Origin: a virus
Strand: one strand, 5' to 3'
Virus record (IMG/VR): IMGVR_UViG_3300028608_000034
Span: 1 to 41,719 of that record
Length of the DNA: 41,719 bases
Every line of letters starts with the position of its first letter. Position 1 is the first letter of the stretch. The position numbers and the translations under genes are program-made. A model generated the notes under the pieces. It did not search any database, was not told the origin of the DNA, and saw only the letters and a list, made by a program, of their open reading frames with translations. Positions 10,444-20,556 of this stretch are shown piece by piece.

Positions 10444-11337
10444 ATGGACCTCTCCATCAAGGACGTCGTCTGGTTCGCGAACCAGCGGCATCGCGCCTGG
10501 GCTGGCCAGCGCGTGTCCGACCCCATCGTGGCGACCCGCAAGTTCACGAACGTGTTCCGCGTGCTGGACCGTGGCTCGCAGTACCTCATGACCCTCATGA
10601 ACGCCTACGACCGGACCGAGACCCGCGACCGTGTGGCCCTGAGCTACTTCTACCGTCAGGTGAACCGGCCGGACACCATGAACGAGATCATCCAGGCGAA
10701 CGAGGGCTACGTGCCCAGCTTCGAGGAGATCACGAACCCCAAGTGGTATGACAAGGTCGTCGCTCCAGTCGTCCTCAAGCGTCCTGGCAAGTTCCTGAAC
10801 GGTGCGTACATCATCCTCATCAAGCCGGGGGACAGCAGGGGGACCCTGGAGAAGATGAAGGAGATGTTCCCCCAGGCGGGGCCGTCGCTGGAGAGGGTGG
10901 CCACACTGAGCAGCCTGGCGAGCCGGGTGCGCGAACTGCAGAAAACCCCTGGCCTCGGGCCGTTTCTGGCGATGCAGATCGCTACCGACCTGGGGTACTG
11001 CCGGGGCGAGGAAGACCAGGAGAACGACTTCATCCTGGCTGGCCCTGGCTCCCGCAAGGGCATCGGCTTCATGCTGGGGCTGGGCAAGGACGCCAGTCCT
11101 GCGCAGGCCGTACAGACCATCACGACGTTCCCCGTGGAGAAGCTCCCCGAGCTCCCGGGGTCCAACGGCAGGGCTGCGAGCTGGATGGATATCCAGAACG
11201 TGTTCTGCGAGTTCAGCAAGTACGCACGGTTCAAGCGCGACAACAAGGTGGGGTCGGAGGCCTACCAGCGCAACGGACACTTTTCCACTAGCATCCCGGC
11301 CCAGTTCGTGCTAGGATCAACACGTCAGCCCCGCTGA
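10444..11337 (+). CDS. DNA base hypermodification protein (5-hmdU kinase helical-domain / thymine pyrophosphorylase type)
   Basis: Protein of 297 residues that resembles the helical domain shared by 5-hydroxymethyl-dU DNA kinases and alpha-glutamyl/putrescinyl-thymine pyrophosphorylases. Seen directly: DPIVATRKFTNVFRVLDR at residues 26-43 (the family signature with FTNVFR and DR), and a helix-hairpin-helix-like LQKTPGLGPFLAMQI near 165-180. Members act on hydroxymethyluracil or its pyrophosphate in DNA; no kinase P-loop is present in this chain. It lies directly before a thymidylate-synthase-like gene, which supports a role in thymine modification. The exact reaction is not shown. Start is ATG after AAAGGAAG. 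Confidence 0.72.
   Translation: MDLSIKDVVWFANQRHRAWAGQRVSDPIVATRKFTNVFRVLDRGSQYLMTLMNAYDRTETRDRVALSYFYRQVNRPDTMNEIIQANEGYVPSFEEITNPKWYDKVVAPVVLKRPGKFLNGAYIILIKPGDSRGTLEKMKEMFPQAGPSLERVATLSSLASRVRELQKTPGLGPFLAMQIATDLGYCRGEEDQENDFILAGPGSRKGIGFMLGLGKDASPAQAVQTITTFPVEKLPELPGSNGRAASWMDIQNVFCEFSKYARFKRDNKVGSEAYQRNGHFSTSIPAQFVLGSTRQPR
11289..11317 (+). promoter_or_regulatory. Possible weak promoter before the TS-like gene
   Basis: A -10 TAGGAT follows TAGCAT by 17 bp at the end of the upstream gene, in codons unusual for the genome. The -35 matches the family poorly. A 6-bp hairpin (GTCAGC CCC GCTGAC, 11324-11338) follows. Confidence 0.3.
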
Positions 11338-11365
11338 CACGAGTCCACAATAGGAGAATATCGCA

Positions 11366-12133
11366 ATGCGTCAGTACAACACCGACGACGTGGTTCTGGC
11401 CCTGGCCAGCGCCCCCATCGATGCTCGCACCGGGAACCGGGTCCTGTACTCGGCTTCCTGGCTGGCCGACACCCCCAGCATGATCGGCGAGCGGAACGAG
11501 GACTGGGTCCGCCGCGAGATCGACTGGTTCTTCACCGGGAGCGACGCCCTCGCCGACATGGAGGGACCGGTGCCGCAGGCGTTCCAGGCGTGCGCCGGAA
11601 CCGACGGCAAGGTGAACAGCGCCTACGGCCACATCTTGTTCGGCAAGGGCGAGCACCTGCCCCCGCAGCCCAGCCTCGCCGACCGCATCATCAACGCCTT
11701 CATCCAGGAGGGCAAGCACACCCGGCACGCAGTCGCCATCATCAGCGACCGCAACGTGCACCGGCTGGCCCGCCACAACGAGCGCAACGACTTCATCTGC
11801 ACGAACGCGCTGAACGTGTACATCGACCACGAGGACAAGCTCCACATCGTGGCGCAGATGCGCAGCATGGACGCGGTCTGGGGCTACCGGGCGGACTACT
11901 CCATGTGGGACGCGCTGATGGACTGGCTGCTGGGCTCGCTGGAGTGGGTCTACCCCGAGGTGACCCGTGGGCCGATCACCTTCCAGGTCGGCAACCTGCA
12001 CGTCTACCCCCGGCACCACGACCTCCTCCTGAAGCAGGCCGACATCGTGGACGACAAGCTCGAACGCCTGGCGCGTCGGGCCTGGATGGACCAGACCATC
12101 GCCACCGAGAAGGCACAGGAGCAGCAGTCGTGA
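11366..12133 (+). CDS. Thymidylate-synthase-like dUMP/dCMP (hydroxy)methylase
   Basis: Protein of 255 residues of the thymidylate synthase superfamily. Folate-dependent members add a methyl or hydroxymethyl group to C5 of dUMP or dCMP. Seen directly: FICTNALNVYI with Cys145 where the catalytic Cys of PCH is expected, then AQMRSMDAVWGYRADY at 163-178, matching the RS-x-D phosphate and nucleotide-binding region. The replacement of PCH by ICT and the branch-like RSMDAVWGYRADY resemble phage hydroxymethylases rather than host ThyA. Together with neighbouring genes this suggests 5-hydroxymethyl-dUMP production, but methylation of dUMP cannot be excluded. Confidence 0.75.
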   Translation: MRQYNTDDVVLALASAPIDARTGNRVLYSASWLADTPSMIGERNEDWVRREIDWFFTGSDALADMEGPVPQAFQACAGTDGKVNSAYGHILFGKGEHLPPQPSLADRIINAFIQEGKHTRHAVAIISDRNVHRLARHNERNDFICTNALNVYIDHEDKLHIVAQMRSMDAVWGYRADYSMWDALMDWLLGSLEWVYPEVTRGPITFQVGNLHVYPRHHDLLLKQADIVDDKLERLARRAWMDQTIATEKAQEQQS

Positions 12134-12468
12134 ACCCGCTGGAGGCAGGCGACCCCTGGGAGTGGCTGTGGGTCATGATGCTCTGGGTGTTCTGGGCTCT
12201 GGCCGTGATCGGTGCACTGATCCTCATCTTCGCCATCCTGGTCGGCTTCTGGCGGGCCATCCGGGGCATCCTGCCCCAGACGTCGGGACTGCGCAGGGCG
12301 CAGGTCCAGGACAGCGCTGGCAAGGTGGCTGACTCCTTGTACGGCTCGCAGTTCAGCGGTCACGGCATGGCCTTCATGGCAGGCGTGGACTACGTCATCC
12401 GGGCCATCGAGCGCAAGCCCTACGCCAGCCGGACCAAGCGTCGGCAGCAGCCGACCAAGCTGATCTGA
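12130..12468 (+). CDS. Small membrane protein
   Basis: Protein of 112 residues with one long or two close membrane segments at about residues 12-42 (MMLWVFWALAVIGALILIFA), then a basic cytoplasmic tail ending in KPYASRTKRRQQPTKLI. It starts with GTG overlapping the preceding stop (GTGA). Its position inside the modification cassette may be accidental. It does not look like the holins at the other end of the genome. The function is unknown. Confidence 0.6.
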   Translation: MNPLEAGDPWEWLWVMMLWVFWALAVIGALILIFAILVGFWRAIRGILPQTSGLRRAQVQDSAGKVADSLYGSQFSGHGMAFMAGVDYVIRAIERKPYASRTKRRQQPTKLI

Positions 12469-12474
12469 TAGACT

Positions 12475-12506
12475 GGGGGCCGGTTCCCGGGACGGCACCG
12501 GCCCCC
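12475..12506 (+). terminator. Terminator-like hairpin inside the cassette
   Basis: GGGGGCCGG pairs with CCGGCCCCC over 9 perfect bp around a 14-nt loop that contains CCCGGG. It lies between the membrane-protein gene and the glycosyltransferase gene. Confidence 0.5.
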
Positions 12507-12526
12507 TCCACCCCAAGGAGAACACC

Positions 12527-13462
12527 ATGAAGAGGAAGCCTGAGCTCCCCCTCCTGATCCCCAGCTACAATCGGCCGGGGGCACCGCTCATCAAGCTGGC
12601 GACGCAACTGCTGGGGGACGACTACCCCTGGTTCGTGTTCGTGCGCCGCAGCCAGCACCGTGACTACATGGCAGCAGGCGCACCCCGGCACCACTTGGTC
12701 GCCGTCAACGACAACACGATCCGCACCCTGGGCCACACCAGGAACTATATGATGCGCTGGGCTCTGGAGGAGGGCTTCAAGCGGGTGTTCGACTGGGACG
12801 ACGATGTGGCCCGCATCGGCCGCAAGCTCCCCGACGGCACCCGGCACCAGTCCTGGAAGTCCACGGGCAACGACGACGCGTGGTTCGACGGCCCTGGGTA
12901 CTGGCAGGAGGCGAGCCACCTGGCGCACCAGGTCTTCGACCTGTACGACGGCACCGTGGCAGGCAGCATCCAGAATCAGCGCTGGGCCAGCAGCCTCACG
13001 CTCCAGGTGCAGTGCGGCAAGACTCCCCGCCGGACCAAGATCCTGGAGGTTGAGCGCCTCACTGAGAACGAGCTGTGGTGCCCTCGGGAGTTCCGCTTCC
13101 ACGGCGAGGACATCGGCAACACTGCGCTCTACCTGGAGAACGACTGGCAGATCTTCACCATCTGCAACCTTGTGTACGACTTCATCAGCGAGACGGACGT
13201 GAACCTGCCGTCCACGCTGCGCAGCCGGGACGAGGACGAGAACAAGGCCGTGCACGCCCAGGAGTACGAGGACCTCATGGGCTACGACATCGCGAACTAC
13301 CTGCGGGTGAACAAGGCGTACCCCGACGGCTCGTACATGTACGGCGACATCGACTGGCGCAAGTTCCGCAAGCACACCGGTCAGGTTTCATACACTCACG
13401 CGTTCAGTGCTATCATGGACCGCGTGCCCCTGGCGGATATCCCCGCCACCATCCACCAGTAA
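12527..13462 (+). CDS. Glycosyltransferase, TET-associated (TAGT)-like
   Basis: GT-A-fold glycosyltransferase-like protein, 311 residues. The N-terminus LPLLIPSYNRPGAP is the nucleotide-sugar binding start. FDWDDDVARIG at 88-97 supplies the acidic metal-binding motif, and FHGEDIGNTALYL near 191-203 supplies the acidic catalytic segment. The pattern is that of glycosyltransferases linked to oxidised or hydroxymethylated bases in phage DNA (TET-associated family). No TET/JBP oxygenase is visible here, so the acceptor hydroxyl would have to come from the TS-like enzyme. A cell-surface or protein acceptor is the alternative. Start is ATG after AAGGAG. Confidence 0.68.
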   Translation: MKRKPELPLLIPSYNRPGAPLIKLATQLLGDDYPWFVFVRRSQHRDYMAAGAPRHHLVAVNDNTIRTLGHTRNYMMRWALEEGFKRVFDWDDDVARIGRKLPDGTRHQSWKSTGNDDAWFDGPGYWQEASHLAHQVFDLYDGTVAGSIQNQRWASSLTLQVQCGKTPRRTKILEVERLTENELWCPREFRFHGEDIGNTALYLENDWQIFTICNLVYDFISETDVNLPSTLRSRDEDENKAVHAQEYEDLMGYDIANYLRVNKAYPDGSYMYGDIDWRKFRKHTGQVSYTHAFSAIMDRVPLADIPATIHQ

Positions 13463-13476
13463 CAAGGAGAACCCAC

Positions 13477-14121
13477 ATGCTCATCGCATTCGAAGGCCCC
13501 GACGGTGTCGGCAAGTCCACGTCCGCCCGCCTGCTCAGCCACAACGGCACGCCCATCTACAACGCCACCAAGGAGAACCACAAGGGCGCACGCAGGGAGC
13601 TCGAGCAGGGCTCGTCGGCGTTCGGCTTCGGTCAGGACCTGGTGCAGACGTTCGACCGCATCGACTGGCTGACTCACATGGTCTACCGGCTGGCCATGCC
13701 GAACAAGGAGTGGAACGACGAGCGCGTCCGCACTGTGTTCGCCATGCCCGACACGCATCTCGTCATCAAGCTCCACCGCATGGACTACGACGGCAACTTC
13801 TTCGGCGCTCCCCCCATCCAGCACGCAGAGGACGAGGGGTACAAGCTGGACCAGCTCCTCAAGGTGAACCAGGCGTACTTCTGGTTCCTCCAGTACTTCC
13901 AGGGCATCAACCACGCCTGGGAGTACAGCCTGTTCCGCAGCCTCACGGCCGTCGACGTCTGGTTCGACGAGGACGGCAAGCGTCATCAGACGCTCGGCCT
14001 GTTCCGCTCGCCGGTCGTCACGCCCAGCGGGGAGACCGACCCGGGAGCCGGTGAGCAGGACTTCACCGACGAGGATATCCTCGACCTCCTTCGGGCGGAT
14101 GAGCTCCAGCGCGTCGGCTGA
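13477..14121 (+). CDS. P-loop deoxynucleotide or 5-hmdU kinase
   Basis: Protein of 214 residues of the thymidylate-kinase-like P-loop group. Walker A is FEGPDGVGKST at residues 5-15, and a DR-type motif occurs in VQTFDRIDWLTHMVYRL. No lid region is clear, and the C-terminal 70 residues differ from bacterial Tmk. In the context of the neighbours it may phosphorylate hydroxymethyl-dUMP to feed the polymerase, or phosphorylate hydroxymethyluracil in DNA as 5-hmdU DNA kinases do. ATG follows AAGGAGAACCC. Confidence 0.65.
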   Translation: MLIAFEGPDGVGKSTSARLLSHNGTPIYNATKENHKGARRELEQGSSAFGFGQDLVQTFDRIDWLTHMVYRLAMPNKEWNDERVRTVFAMPDTHLVIKLHRMDYDGNFFGAPPIQHAEDEGYKLDQLLKVNQAYFWFLQYFQGINHAWEYSLFRSLTAVDVWFDEDGKRHQTLGLFRSPVVTPSGETDPGAGEQDFTDEDILDLLRADELQRVG

Positions 14122-14818
14122 GGCTTGGCACCCCCACCAGGATCATCTCTTCCAGGTGGGGGTGCTCATCGCCCGAGCAACCGACCGCCTCCTGCCCGCA
14201 GCAGCCCGACAGGAGGCCTCCCAGGAACTGACCCGCCTGCGGGACCAGGGCCTCATCATCAACAAGTACGGCAAGGAGACTCCAGTGGCCAAGAAGAGCA
14301 GGGCTCACGCCACACCTGACGCCACCACGTTCACCGGCCAGGGCATCATCTTCGCAGTCATCGACAACCGTGAGGAGATGGAGCGGGGTGCCACCACGGT
14401 CGACGTCATCGCGGACGGTATCGAGGCAGCGCTGGACGCAGGGCACGAGGACAGCGAAAGCATCGCCCGGTACCTGACCACCAGCGCGTTCCAGCACATT
14501 CCTGACAAGCGCGTGCGCTTCAACTCGGTGCTCAAGGCGGGCGACGTGGTGGGCGCGTACATCTTGCGGAAGCTGTACAATAGCTTCAACGAACTGGCCA
14601 AGATGTCCGAGGAGGAAGAGGACCCCCAGCAGAAGAAGCTTCTCGCAGCCGAGGCGCGCGGTTTCGCCGAGGCACTTACCATCGTGCTGAGCCCCTTCAG
14701 CAGCGAGGACCCCAAGGACCCCCGGCTTGTCAACTGGGACGAGGTCGACCGCATGACAGACAACTTCGAAAAGGAACAGCGCCTTGTCCGGCGCGAACGA
14801 AAGGGAAACCCCCAGTGA
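14099..14818 (+). CDS. Hypothetical protein with uncertain start
   Basis: Protein of up to 239 residues, family not recognised. It is helical and acidic in the middle (ELAKMSEEEEDPQQKKLLAAEARG) with a charged C-terminus (FEKEQRLVRRERKGNPQ). Three starts are possible: ATG at 14099 (used here, 23-base overlap with the kinase gene), GTG at 14162, and GTG at 14285, which has a good AAGGAG 6 bases upstream. The codons between 14162 and 14284 look coding (third positions mostly C or G), so a long form is preferred. The stop overlaps the next GTG. Confidence 0.55.
   Translation: MSSSASAEAWHPHQDHLFQVGVLIARATDRLLPAAARQEASQELTRLRDQGLIINKYGKETPVAKKSRAHATPDATTFTGQGIIFAVIDNREEMERGATTVDVIADGIEAALDAGHEDSESIARYLTTSAFQHIPDKRVRFNSVLKAGDVVGAYILRKLYNSFNELAKMSEEEEDPQQKKLLAAEARGFAEALTIVLSPFSSEDPKDPRLVNWDEVDRMTDNFEKEQRLVRRERKGNPQ
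14128..14165 (+). other. 11-bp perfect hairpin at a gene boundary
   Basis: GCACCCCCACC pairs with GGTGGGGGTGC over 11 bp around a 16-nt loop, 7 bases after the kinase stop codon. It looks like a terminator, yet the next reading frame is open through it, so it is either an intergenic terminator (if that gene starts at 14285) or a structure inside coding sequence. Confidence 0.5.
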
Positions 14819-15687
14819 CCACCTTCACTCACCGTCACCCGTCCGTCGAGGCCCTGCGCCTCACCATCCAGAACGCCGAGGAGGTTGCGAAGTGGTGTGG
14901 CGGTCGCGTCATCACGTCGCGCTCCGACGGCTTCTGGGTCATGTTCACCGACGTGAACGGCCAGTCCCAGACCGCAGTCCCCAGCGACTTCATCGTCAAG
15001 TACGAGGCGGGCAAGTACGCACGGTTCACCGAGCCGGAGTTCGAGTCGGAGTACTTCACGCTCGGCCACACCGAGTCGCGGGAGTTCGTGCTCGCCCGCC
15101 TGGCGTCCAGCCTGGGCATCGAGGAGGCCCTGGGCGACAGCTACGAGGCCGGTCACGCTGAGGGCTTCCACATGGGCCGCAGCACCCCGGAGCAGGGACA
15201 CAAGGCCCAGCGTCAGAACCGGGAGTTCCACGAGGCGATGGGCATCGAGAGCCAGGCGACCCCGAGTGCCATCCCCGCCGATGACGTGCCCGTGGTCATC
15301 GAGCTCATCCGTGAGGAGTTCATCGACGAGCTGATCCCGGCCCTGGGTGCGCGCGTCACGTTCACCCCCGACGGCAAGTTCGACAACATTCTGGTCCTCG
15401 GTGAGCCGAACGTGGTGGAGATCTACGACGCCCTCATCGATATCCTCTACGTCACTTACGGGGCGCTCAACCGTGCAGGCATGGACGCGGAGCCGGGGTA
15501 CGACGAGGTCCAGGGCAGCAACATGTCCAAGCTCGGGGCCGACGGCCAGCCCATCATCGCGGGCGAGAACGACCCCGACGGTGTGTTCCCCGGTCGCGTC
15601 AAGAAGGGGCCGAACTATTACAAGCCGAACCTCGCCGACGTGCTGCGCGAGCAGGGCTGGGACGAGACGGAAGAGCAGGTCGCCTGA
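14815..15687 (+). CDS. MazG-like nucleoside triphosphate pyrophosphohydrolase
   Basis: Protein of 290 residues with two parts. Residues 1-85 are a small beta domain (GGRVITSRSDGFWVMFTD). Residues 135-290 match the all-alpha NTP pyrophosphohydrolase superfamily: REEFIDELIPALG (metal-binding Glu residues near 167-172), EIYDALIDILYVTYGALNRAG (Asp residues near 205-209), then SNMSKLGADGQPI and KKGPNYYKPNL, as in the phosphoribosyl-ATP-PPase/MazG-like phage enzymes. Such enzymes hydrolyse dNTPs to dNMPs. Near the modification cassette it may remove dTTP or dUTP to favour a modified nucleotide, which is inference. It starts with GTG (GTGA overlap). Confidence 0.75.
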   Translation: MTTFTHRHPSVEALRLTIQNAEEVAKWCGGRVITSRSDGFWVMFTDVNGQSQTAVPSDFIVKYEAGKYARFTEPEFESEYFTLGHTESREFVLARLASSLGIEEALGDSYEAGHAEGFHMGRSTPEQGHKAQRQNREFHEAMGIESQATPSAIPADDVPVVIELIREEFIDELIPALGARVTFTPDGKFDNILVLGEPNVVEIYDALIDILYVTYGALNRAGMDAEPGYDEVQGSNMSKLGADGQPIIAGENDPDGVFPGRVKKGPNYYKPNLADVLREQGWDETEEQVA

Positions 15688-18526: not shown

Positions 18527-18565
18527 CACCCCTCGTCACCTGACCCGAACAGGTGGCGGGGGGTG
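18527..18565 (+). terminator. Strong terminator after the basic-tail protein gene
   Basis: A 16-bp stem (including CACCTG / CAGGTG and CCCC / GGGG) with a 7-nt loop begins 11 bases after the stop codon and is followed by TTCTCGG. It is among the longest stems in the window. A second small hairpin (CTCGG / CCGAG, 18568-18585) follows directly. Confidence 0.7.
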
Positions 18566-18588
18566 TTCTCGGTTCTAGAGCCGAGGGT

Positions 18589-18665
18589 CGGGTGAGGCCA
18601 CACCAGGCCGGAACCATGCGCGGTGTGTTGGAAGCATGGTCCGGGTTCGATTCCCGGTCACCCAC
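18589..18665 (+). ncRNA. tRNA-like cloverleaf element upstream of the DNA polymerase gene
   Basis: A 77-nt element folds into three arms closed by an acceptor-like stem. The acceptor-like stem is CGGGTGA / TCACCCA (6 of 7 pairs). The arms are a 4-bp GGCC arm, a perfect 7-bp arm ACCATGC / GCATGGT with a 14-nt loop, and a textbook T-arm CCGGG-TTCGATT-CCCGG. The T-arm and total length are those of a tRNA. The loop of the middle arm is twice the size of an anticodon loop and no anticodon stem of 5 bp with a 7-nt loop was found. It is probably a decayed tRNA or a tRNA mimic in the polymerase leader, not a working tRNA. Confidence 0.45.
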
Positions 18666-18693
18666 AAGTCAACAACAAGTAGGAGTCCACCCT

Positions 18694-20556
18694 ATGGAAC
18701 TGATGATCAGCGATGACTGGGCTGAGGTCGAAGAGTACCTGGCCCTCTCAGACGACATCACGTACTTCGACATCGAGACGACGGCCCTGACCGTCGGGCA
18801 CGGCCAGATCCTGTGTATCGCCCTGGCACCCCTGGACCGTGACGACGTCATGGTGTGGTGGCCCAGCAGCGAGGCTGAGATCGCCAAGCTGCGCATCCGC
18901 AGGGGTGCCGCCCACAACTCACCCTTCGACACCCGCTGGCTCTGCAGCTACGGAGCGAAGATCCGGGTCGTGTGGGACACCATGCTGATGGCCTACCTGC
19001 AGGACGAGAACCACCCCATCGGCCTCAAGGACCAGGGCATGCGGCACCTGGGGCTCGAGGACTGGTCCGACCCGAACGTCAAGTCGCTCGGCGAGGAGTT
19101 CGGCCAGTTCTGGGAGGACCGGGTCAAGATACCTCGTGTGGCCTGGAAGCTGAGCAAGAAGCGCGTCAGCATCTACGCGGGCAAGGATGCCCACATCGGG
19201 CGCGAACTGCTCAAGCACCAGCGCCGCCACAACAAGCGCAACCTCCGGCCGGGTGAGAACCCTGTCCGCATCATGCGGGACATCATGCTCCCTGCGGTCA
19301 AGCCCCTCCAGGAGATGGAGGCGAACCGCATGCCGGTCCGGATGGGCATGGTCAAGAAGACCAAGGAGCGCGTCCAGGCGGAGATCGCCAAGATCGAGCA
19401 GCAGCTTGAGAAGTCCATCCCGCCGAAGGACCGCTGGCCCTCGTTCGTCAAGTCGGTCAACTGGGGCAATTCCAACTGGACTAAGTGGTGGCTCTTCATC
19501 CACCAGGGCGCGGTCTGCCCCGCAGTCGGCAAGCCCTCCAAGACCTGGCCCGATGGGGTGCCCAGCCTGTCCGCCGAGAACCTCAATAAGATCGACCACC
19601 CCGCAGCCAGGCTCCTCGTCAAGCGCGCAACCCTGTACAAGCAACTGACCGGGTTCCTTATCCCCATCGAGGAGCGCACGCGGGACGGTAGGATCGGCAC
19701 CAGCTTCAAGCTCACCGGTACGGTCACGGGCAGGCTCTCCAGCAGCAGCCCGAGCGACGAGGACCCTGGGCTGAACAGTCAGCAGATCCCGCGCGACAAG
19801 GCCACACGTAACCTCTTCGGGGAGAAGGGCCTCGCCTGGATCGAGGTAGACTTCAGCCAGCTCGAGCTCCGCATCGTCGCGCGCCTTGCCAACGACCCCA
19901 CCATGATCCGGCTCTTCGAGGAGGGCACGGACATTCACACGTTCATGGCGCACAAGCTGGTCGACGCTGACGAGCTCACCAAGGAGCACCGCTCGCTCGC
20001 CAAGGGTGTCAACTTCGGGTTCGTGTACGGCATGCGCGAGAAGCACTTCGCGGACTACGTGCGGGAGAACTACGGGGTCATCATCAACCCCAAGGACGCA
20101 GGCAAGTTCCGCGCCGAGTTCTTCAACACGTTCGGTTCGCTGGAGGACTGGTACCGGAAGCAGCGTCGGGAGGCCATCGAGTACGGTGGGGTCCACAACG
20201 AGTTCGGCCGGTTCCGCCACTTGCCCAAGGTGTACAACGACGATTACTGGGTGCAGGAGAACGCCTTCCGCCAGGCGATCAACAGTCCGGTCCAGTCGCT
20301 AGGCTCGGACTTCATGCTCATCAGTCTGGGCCGAATTGCTCGGGACTTGCGGGTCCGGGAGTTGGGTGCTAGACTCATTACCACTGTCCACGACAGCGTG
20401 TGCTTGACGGCCCCGTACAGCACCGCGCGCAAGGTGGGCAGGATTGTTCAACAGACTATGGAAAAGGCTGACGATGGTCTCACGCGCAAGTTCTTCCTCA
20501 AGGCAGACGTCACGATCTCGCGATGCTGGGGAGGCGAGCCCCTTGCGGAATTCTAA
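18694..20556 (+). CDS. DNA polymerase, family A, with 3'-5' exonuclease
   Basis: Replicative DNA polymerase I-type enzyme of 620 residues. The exonuclease motifs are complete: YFDIET (Asp26, Glu28), HNSPFD (Asn75, Asp79) and YAGKDAH (Tyr161, Asp165). The polymerase motifs are VDFSQLELR (motif A, Asp386), RSLAKGVNFGFVYG (motif B, 433-446) and TTVHDSV (motif C, His566-Asp567). There is no N-terminal 5'-nuclease domain. ATG at 18694 is chosen because AGGAG lies 8 bases upstream; the frame is open further back but runs into the hairpin region. A promoter-like element lies inside the 3' end (20347-20375). Confidence 0.93.
   Translation: MELMISDDWAEVEEYLALSDDITYFDIETTALTVGHGQILCIALAPLDRDDVMVWWPSSEAEIAKLRIRRGAAHNSPFDTRWLCSYGAKIRVVWDTMLMAYLQDENHPIGLKDQGMRHLGLEDWSDPNVKSLGEEFGQFWEDRVKIPRVAWKLSKKRVSIYAGKDAHIGRELLKHQRRHNKRNLRPGENPVRIMRDIMLPAVKPLQEMEANRMPVRMGMVKKTKERVQAEIAKIEQQLEKSIPPKDRWPSFVKSVNWGNSNWTKWWLFIHQGAVCPAVGKPSKTWPDGVPSLSAENLNKIDHPAARLLVKRATLYKQLTGFLIPIEERTRDGRIGTSFKLTGTVTGRLSSSSPSDEDPGLNSQQIPRDKATRNLFGEKGLAWIEVDFSQLELRIVARLANDPTMIRLFEEGTDIHTFMAHKLVDADELTKEHRSLAKGVNFGFVYGMREKHFADYVRENYGVIINPKDAGKFRAEFFNTFGSLEDWYRKQRREAIEYGGVHNEFGRFRHLPKVYNDDYWVQENAFRQAINSPVQSLGSDFMLISLGRIARDLRVRELGARLITTVHDSVCLTAPYSTARKVGRIVQQTMEKADDGLTRKFFLKADVTISRCWGGEPLAEF
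20347..20375 (+). promoter_or_regulatory. Promoter-like sequence inside the polymerase gene
   Basis: A -35 TTGCGG and a -10 TAGACT are separated by 17 bp, with the rare codon AGA in the -10. The next gene starts 168 bp downstream. It could give the recombination genes a separate transcript. Confidence 0.4.

Follow-up and report, generated by a model that had tools for sequence, protein, structure and literature searches.

A predicted cytosine hydroxymethylation and glycosylation cassette with an HMUDK_hel protein in a genome likely to belong to a Microbacterium Cluster EA-type phage

Which base is modified, and with what group, by a phage cassette that combines a thymidylate synthase (TS)-like enzyme with a glycosyltransferase? 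This question is raised by IMG/VR virus record IMGVR_UViG_3300028608_000034, the whole of which (41,719 bases) is referred to here as the window. The best DNA matches of the window are to Ilzatvirus, and 195 of 199 matches are Microbacterium phages, so the likely source of the cassette is a Microbacterium phage of the Cluster EA type. A preliminary description had read four genes in a row as a thymine hypermodification pathway: a TS-like enzyme, a protein with the 5-hydroxymethyldeoxyuridine (5-hmdU) kinase helical domain (HMUDK_hel), a TET-associated-type glycosyltransferase (TAGT) and a P-loop kinase. Each of the four genes is found on the + strand, with matches to PF00303, PF18723, PF20691 and phrog_4121, respectively, and the sequence signatures that it listed can be seen: FICTN, with ICT replacing PCH, in the TS-like protein; FTNVFRVLDR, for the FTNVFR/DR signature, in HMUDK_hel; and DDD (residues 91-93) and GED (within HGED around D195) in the TAGT. 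The genes lie in a run on one strand, but the gene at 12130-12468 (phrog_4198) separates those for the TS-like protein and the TAGT; the kinase gene starts at 13477. As discussed below, the cassette probably makes glycosylated 5-hydroxymethylcytosine (5hmC) in phage DNA, with cytosine in place of the thymine proposed earlier.

The identity of the base depends on the TS-like protein. This protein is barely over the cut-off of the thymidylate synthase profile PF00303 (24.4 bits, cut-off 24.3). It matches structures of T4 gp42 (deoxycytidylate hydroxymethylase) with an E-value of 7e-24 and structures of ThyA with an E-value of only approximately 0.3, which places it apart from ThyA. FICTN and GYRADY of the window enzyme align with FMCTN and GFRNDY of T4, identifying the catalytic Cys145, Thr146 (the same residue as in T4 beside the catalytic Cys) and Asp177. 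In the TS superfamily, the substrate depends on residue 177 (E. coli numbering), with Asn specifying dUMP and Asp specifying dCMP; TS-family proteins from cytosine-modified DNA are marked by Asp177 along with a change at residue 147 (PMC8670742). The number of D177 in the window enzyme agrees with that of the E. coli position by coincidence. Asp is found at the base-specifying position in every Cluster EA-type enzyme of the set. M6- and Montesquieu-type enzymes encoded beside HMUDK_hel have Asn wherever the motif is readable (it is unreadable at one locus), the sole exception being locus L109 (Asp); this Asn lies in GxxGxN with a one-residue indel in M6-type enzymes and in GLPFN in E. coli ThyA. 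In a maximum-likelihood tree, the window clade and T4 gp42 are joined with support of 100/99 and the Asn-type enzymes form a separate clade (95/91), while the deepest joins (E. coli ThyA, RB69 and L109) are on long branches and are unsure. Because of Asp177, the T4 gp42 match and the tree clade, the pathway is read as one of cytosine and not of thymine, and the TS-like protein looks like a dCMP hydroxymethylase of the T4 gp42 type. The earlier suggestion that it produces 5-hydroxymethyl-dUMP is not borne out by these comparisons. Homologues of this enzyme are encoded in 191 Microbacterium phage records. Those of Cluster EA carry the annotation 'thymidylate synthase', and a literature search found no paper testing a Microbacterium phage enzyme annotated in this way.

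The glycosyltransferase scores 32.1 bits against the TAGT profile PF20691 (cut-off 27.5) and matches phrog_842 (beta-glucosyl-HMC-alpha-glucosyltransferase). Cluster EA counterparts in the same slot mostly score 43-57 bits against PF20691, with Casey at 17. The protein keeps the invariant residues D91, D92, D93, D195, R232 and W277. The AlphaFold2 (AF2) model (pLDDT 84.5) has a GT-A fold and its PDB structure matches are GT-A enzymes, including the wall teichoic acid enzymes TarP, TarS and RmlT. Membership in the phage TAGT family, as opposed to the cell-wall enzymes, is supported by the sequence profiles, and the protein is a predicted DNA glycosyltransferase. The TAGT of T6 is a beta-glucosyl-HMC-alpha-glucosyltransferase that acts on glucosylated 5hmC DNA, and what lone TAGTs do, present in 288 of 753 glycosyltransferase-bearing phage genomes, is listed among the open questions (PMC13216743). 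Cluster EA phages vary in the slot between the hydroxymethylase and kinase genes: Kojivirus has no TAGT there, and others have one or two, with highly divergent sequences. This variability suggests that the sugar, or the way in which it is linked, has diversified.

Homologues of the window kinase are found in 191 Microbacterium records, whether or not HMUDK_hel is present. Because this number is the same as that for the hydroxymethylase and is independent of HMUDK_hel, the protein fits, and probably is, a 5-hydroxymethyl-dCMP kinase. The preliminary description had allowed for either a dNMP kinase or an hmdU kinase; a P-loop kinase is indeed present, but a 5-hmdU DNA kinase was rejected, as PF18748 has no match in the window. 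Ploopntkinase3 (PF18751) likewise has no window match, and positive records did match both profiles in the same searches. The kinase has no detectable sequence similarity to PDB entries, and PDB sequence searches with the glycosyltransferase and HMUDK_hel also returned nothing useful. No match in the record was found to TET/JBP oxygenases (as had been noted earlier), ADDT, T4 alpha-glucosyltransferase (AGT) or T4 beta-glucosyltransferase (BGT) in searches made without a positive control. The MazG domain PF01503, encoded downstream of the kinase, has been reported alongside genes for TS-like proteins in contigs with modified cytosine (PMC8670742). The set of genes is not due to chance, as homologues recur across Microbacterium phages (191 records each for the hydroxymethylase and kinase and 42 for HMUDK_hel).

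The HMUDK_hel protein scores 119 bits against PF18723 (cut-off 25). It keeps every residue that is invariant across 30 relatives (F34, N36, R39, D42, D182, G200-G202, D249, C255, E256 and K259). Its AF2 model (pLDDT 91.6) is most similar to crystal structure 8z2n, the 5-phosphomethyl-dU (5-PmdU) glycinyltransferase PUGT (Z 10.7, 4.2 A, 229 residues). HhH-GPD DNA glycosylases, enzymes that flip bases, rank next; a Z near 10 is suggestive for helical proteins, not proof. Foldseek alone gave no significant match for HMUDK_hel, and the ADDT family was not matched significantly in a profile-profile comparison, although the structure points to the related PUGT. Outside cytosine settings, HMUDK_hel is found beside dUMP-type hydroxymethylases. 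From its co-occurrence and fold, we propose that HMUDK_hel is a base-flipping partner common to kinase and glycosyltransferase routes. Both its Pfam name (kinase helical domain) and its older name (thymine pyrophosphorylase) are a misfit for loci that have a TAGT and no kinase.

The proposed model for the cassette is as follows. The hydroxymethylase would convert dCMP and methylenetetrahydrofolate to 5-hydroxymethyl-dCMP, which the P-loop kinase would phosphorylate to the diphosphate and the host nucleoside diphosphate kinase to the triphosphate. MazG would remove dCTP, such that the phage polymerase incorporates 5-hydroxymethyl-dCTP. The TAGT would then move a sugar from a nucleotide-sugar onto the hydroxymethyl group in DNA. 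HMUDK_hel would bind the DNA and expose the hydroxymethylated base, serving the glycosyltransferase here and a base kinase in other phages. The family and substrate class of the hydroxymethylase come from sequence and tree tests; the kinase, MazG and TAGT steps are based on protein families, gene order and what is established of T4 and T6 biochemistry, and the role of HMUDK_hel on co-occurrence and fold. A cassette for base hydroxymethylation and DNA glycosylation that lacks TET, as first described, is supported; thymine as its base is not. Neither of the profile outcomes that the preliminary description had named as refuting it (a TS-like protein placed with ThyA, a glycosyltransferase placed with cell-wall enzymes) was obtained. 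Its route had also been called undescribed, which holds only in part: a hydroxymethylase, a kinase and a glycosyltransferase together follow T4 logic; the new ingredient is HMUDK_hel. In all, the window has a probable cytosine cassette of T4 logic in an actinobacterial phage, a kind that has gone unremarked in annotated relatives, and HMUDK_hel in a cytosine setting.

The partners of HMUDK_hel were compared across phages. An initial 125 loci were classified and the search was then repeated with iterated profiles, giving 78 non-redundant HMUDK_hel loci; partners were sought in flanks of up to 10 kb. Eight open reading frames were matched by both of the iterated profiles HMUD1 and Ploopntkinase3, which were therefore counted as one kinase class. 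A kinase of this type is found at 33 of the 78 loci, a TAGT at 28, neither at 17 and both at none. Among dUMP-type loci flanked by 4 kb or more on both sides, a TAGT is present in 0/18 loci with a kinase or ADDT and in 11/17 others (Fisher p 3e-5, which is not a strict probability as the loci are related). When mapped onto the HMUDK_hel tree, the labels for kinase and TAGT need 13 changes each, of which at least 9-10 are forced by well-supported branches (quick method); the partner has therefore been exchanged repeatedly. In the simplest interpretation, the kinase and the glycosyltransferase represent alternative fates of one hydroxymethyl group, and HMUDK_hel acts in a step that the two routes share. 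Cluster EA HMUDK_hel proteins fall among those of dUMP-type phages in the tree, and because of this nesting HMUDK_hel appears to have entered the cytosine context. We tentatively suggest, as a possibility that may well be wrong, that HMUDK_hel, rather than being a kinase domain or an enzyme specific for thymine, is an exchangeable subunit of a modular system that presents the base to whichever base kinase or TAGT tailors 5-hydroxymethylpyrimidine in DNA, and that it moved from uracil- to cytosine-type phages. The kinase-or-glycosyltransferase rule makes the role of HMUDK_hel directly testable and is the most interesting outcome of this analysis.

The window-type TAGT is near HMUDK_hel in 9/9 cases with upstream sequence: the close relatives Juanyo, WilliamStrong, Morrigan, Chepli, KatChan and Luna18, loci L108 and L109, and the window. 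In L109, an unrelated phage, HMUDK_hel directly follows a window-type TAGT (32% identity) and an Asp-type TS-like protein is encoded in the same record, which suggests a second case of HMUDK_hel in a cytosine context. At L109:1518-3434 and L026:874-2220 (IMGVR_UViG_3300031998_000142), a TAGT adjoins HMUDK_hel and the C-terminus of the Asp177 TS-like protein resembles dCMP deaminase. At L064:6822-7619, L074, L075, L077, L080 and L100, and also at L039, L050, L054 and L060, a TAGT lies near HMUDK_hel and a hydroxymethylase of the dUMP (Asn) type, and neither a kinase nor ADDT was detected. Loci of the L064 type are candidates for glycosylated 5-hydroxymethyluracil in phages, the product imagined for the window in the preliminary description.

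Such loci, together with the usual position of HMUDK_hel beside dUMP-type enzymes, lend some weight to a thymine pathway in the window, in which dUMP is hydroxymethylated and the thymine is then glycosylated or otherwise hypermodified. We rejected this reading on Asp177 and the tree and consider it improbable; the Thr after the catalytic Cys and the T4 gp42 match also argue for dCMP, and neither a 5-hmdU DNA kinase nor (in the search lacking a positive control) ADDT was matched. The TS-like enzyme might instead make another C5-modified dCMP (the 5-hydroxy-dCMP of RB69 or the 5-methyl-dCMP of Xp12), with the glycosyltransferase acting on that product or on something else. The RB69 5-hydroxy-dCMP synthase belongs to the same superfamily (PMC13390438) and likewise has an Asp and a CT close to its active site. 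There is little chance that this explanation is correct, as the window enzyme is nearer to T4 gp42 (25% identity) than to RB69 ORF048c (20% identity), and the T4 motif MRSxDxVxGxRxDY is kept in the window enzyme and missing from RB69. In the tree, RB69 sits on a long branch, of unsure position, that does not join the window clade. A cell-surface or wall-glycosylating function for the glycosyltransferase, unrelated to DNA, is very improbable: TarP, TarS and RmlT are among its structural matches, but they have only the GT-A fold in common with it, its sequence profiles are TAGT and phrog_842, and its gene lies between those for the hydroxymethylase and kinase, in a slot that other TAGTs occupy in relatives. 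It is unlikely, given that HMUDK_hel and TAGT recur together without a kinase or ADDT, that HMUDK_hel acts as a transferase in its own right, adding another group to phosphorylated 5hmC and producing a second hypermodified cytosine beside the glycosylated one. Its best structural match is PUGT, its conserved residues are intact and, in Kojivirus, a kinase-like gene from the PHROG of the M6 kinase overlaps HMUDK_hel; however, no base kinase was found in the window and the comparison with ADDT was not significant.

Several points weigh against glycosylated 5hmC and against the role given to HMUDK_hel. The predicted hydroxymethylase is only 25% identical to T4 gp42. The TAGT match, which is close to the cut-off, is mostly to the profile's N-terminal half, over protein residues 8-108. 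As T6 TAGT puts a second glucose on an already glucosylated base, it is an extrapolation that a lone TAGT would act directly on 5hmC. HMUDK_hel is missing from most of the Cluster EA phages that carry a TAGT, and so it is not required for TAGT generally. The exclusivity of kinase and TAGT may merely reflect two fates of the same hydroxyl, which does not prove contact of HMUDK_hel with either enzyme, and a kinase or glycosyltransferase gene beyond the flanks would escape the count.

Microbacterium Cluster EA phages (Ilzatvirus, Elerivirus, Neferthenavirus and Kojivirus) have the same gene order as the window. Compared to BeeBee8 (Ilzatvirus), the hydroxymethylase is 82% identical, the small protein encoded at 12130-12468 is 85% identical and the product of gene 14168-14818 is 89% identical. 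The window TAGT is only 23% identical to that of BeeBee8 and 83% identical to that of Juanyo, and is of the Elerivirus/Neferthenavirus type (80-83%). The BeeBee8 region has no HMUDK_hel, and the window protein is 75% identical to that of Kauala (Kojivirus). The window is therefore a mosaic, in which an Ilzatvirus-like neighbourhood carries a TAGT of this other type and HMUDK_hel, neither of which is found in BeeBee8.

In the Kojivirus phages Golden and Kauala, which have an Asp-type hydroxymethylase and no TAGT, a P-loop kinase gene (Golden gp55, L006:1353-1958; Kauala gp53, L010:1368-1973) overlaps the start of HMUDK_hel (PF18751 E-values: 3e-17 and 3e-16, respectively). Golden gp55 is in the same PHROG as the M6 5-hmdU DNA kinase. 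5-HMUDK does not phosphorylate 5hmC (PMC6457204). The overlapping Kojivirus kinase is a candidate 5hmC DNA kinase; if this prediction is correct, phosphorylation of 5hmC in DNA would be a new activity that 5-HMUDK lacks. PHROG 800 labels the Golden gp55 kinase family 'terminase small subunit', and this label has been copied in some records. Luna18 gp45 (L005:8239-8940), a homologue of window gene 14168-14818, is annotated as 'glycosyltransferase' yet matches no glycosyltransferase profile, and this annotation is probably a mislabel.

The cassette can be compared to three known systems. It resembles the T4/T6 5hmC pathway (gp42, gp1, gp56, the glucosyltransferases and T6 TAGT) in having a dCMP-type hydroxymethylase, a nucleotide kinase, a pyrophosphohydrolase and a DNA glycosyltransferase; its hydroxymethylase is a relative of gp42 and its glycosyltransferase a relative of T6 TAGT. 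It differs from T4/T6 in its lone TAGT, with no match to the GT-B alpha- and beta-glucosyltransferases (the search having no positive control), in the absence of PDB sequence similarity for its kinase, in the presence of HMUDK_hel and in its 42-kb actinobacterial phage genome. M6, ViI and Montesquieu, which hypermodify thymidine, also have HMUDK_hel (aGPT-Pplase1) near a TS-superfamily hydroxymethylase, but the window enzyme is dCMP-type and not dUMP-type, and a TAGT is found instead of a PF18748 kinase or an ADDT (the latter sought without a positive control). The MetaGPA 5hmC carbamoyltransferase phages share an Asp177 TS-like enzyme, PRA-PH and a tailoring transferase with the window, which has a glycosyltransferase in place of the carbamoyltransferase and, in addition, HMUDK_hel (PMC8670742). 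Approximately 190 sequenced Microbacterium phage records, mostly isolates from one laboratory host, probably carry hypermodified cytosine. These phages are tractable material for the function of lone TAGTs and the role of HMUDK_hel/aGPT-Pplase1.

Table 1. Features of the cassette and neighbouring replication genes in the window
Feature	Position	Strand	Evidence
HMUDK_hel/aGPT-Pplase1-type protein, 297 aa; proposed DNA-binding base-flipping partner	10444-11337	+	PF18723 E-value 3e-34; phrog_2396 E-value 6e-63
Predicted dCMP hydroxymethylase, T4 gp42 type, 255 aa; C145, T146, D177	11366-12133	+	PDB 1b49 E-value 7e-24; alignments; tree
Small conserved protein, probably membrane	12130-12468	+	phrog_4198 E-value 4e-46
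TAGT (GT-A), predicted DNA glycosyltransferase, 311 aa	12527-13462	+	PF20691 E-value 1e-7; phrog_842 E-value 3e-8
P-loop nucleotide kinase, proposed 5-hydroxymethyl-dCMP kinase, 214 aa	13477-14121	+	phrog_4121 E-value 2e-66
Conserved gene between kinase and MazG	14168-14818	+	Identity to BeeBee8 counterpart (see text)
MazG/PRA-PH nucleotide pyrophosphohydrolase, proposed dCTP remover	14815-15687	+	PF01503 E-value 5e-10; phrog_4159 E-value 2e-131
Family A DNA polymerase, would use 5-hydroxymethyl-dCTP; start codon uncertain	18553-20556	+	PF00476 E-value 7e-63

The cassette genes (Table 1) have a high third-position G+C content wherever this was computed, and the run is followed by genes encoding a helicase and the family A DNA polymerase. 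Several counterparts of the small gene 12130-12468 in relatives are annotated as 'membrane protein'. Gene 14168-14818 had no match in a Pfam search, and an NCBIfam search gave no informative names. No tRNA was detected in the window by ARAGORN. In Golden, a tRNA-Phe with anticodon AAA is annotated (L006:10937-11018), and in Clock and Fulton undetermined tRNAs are annotated in the same place.

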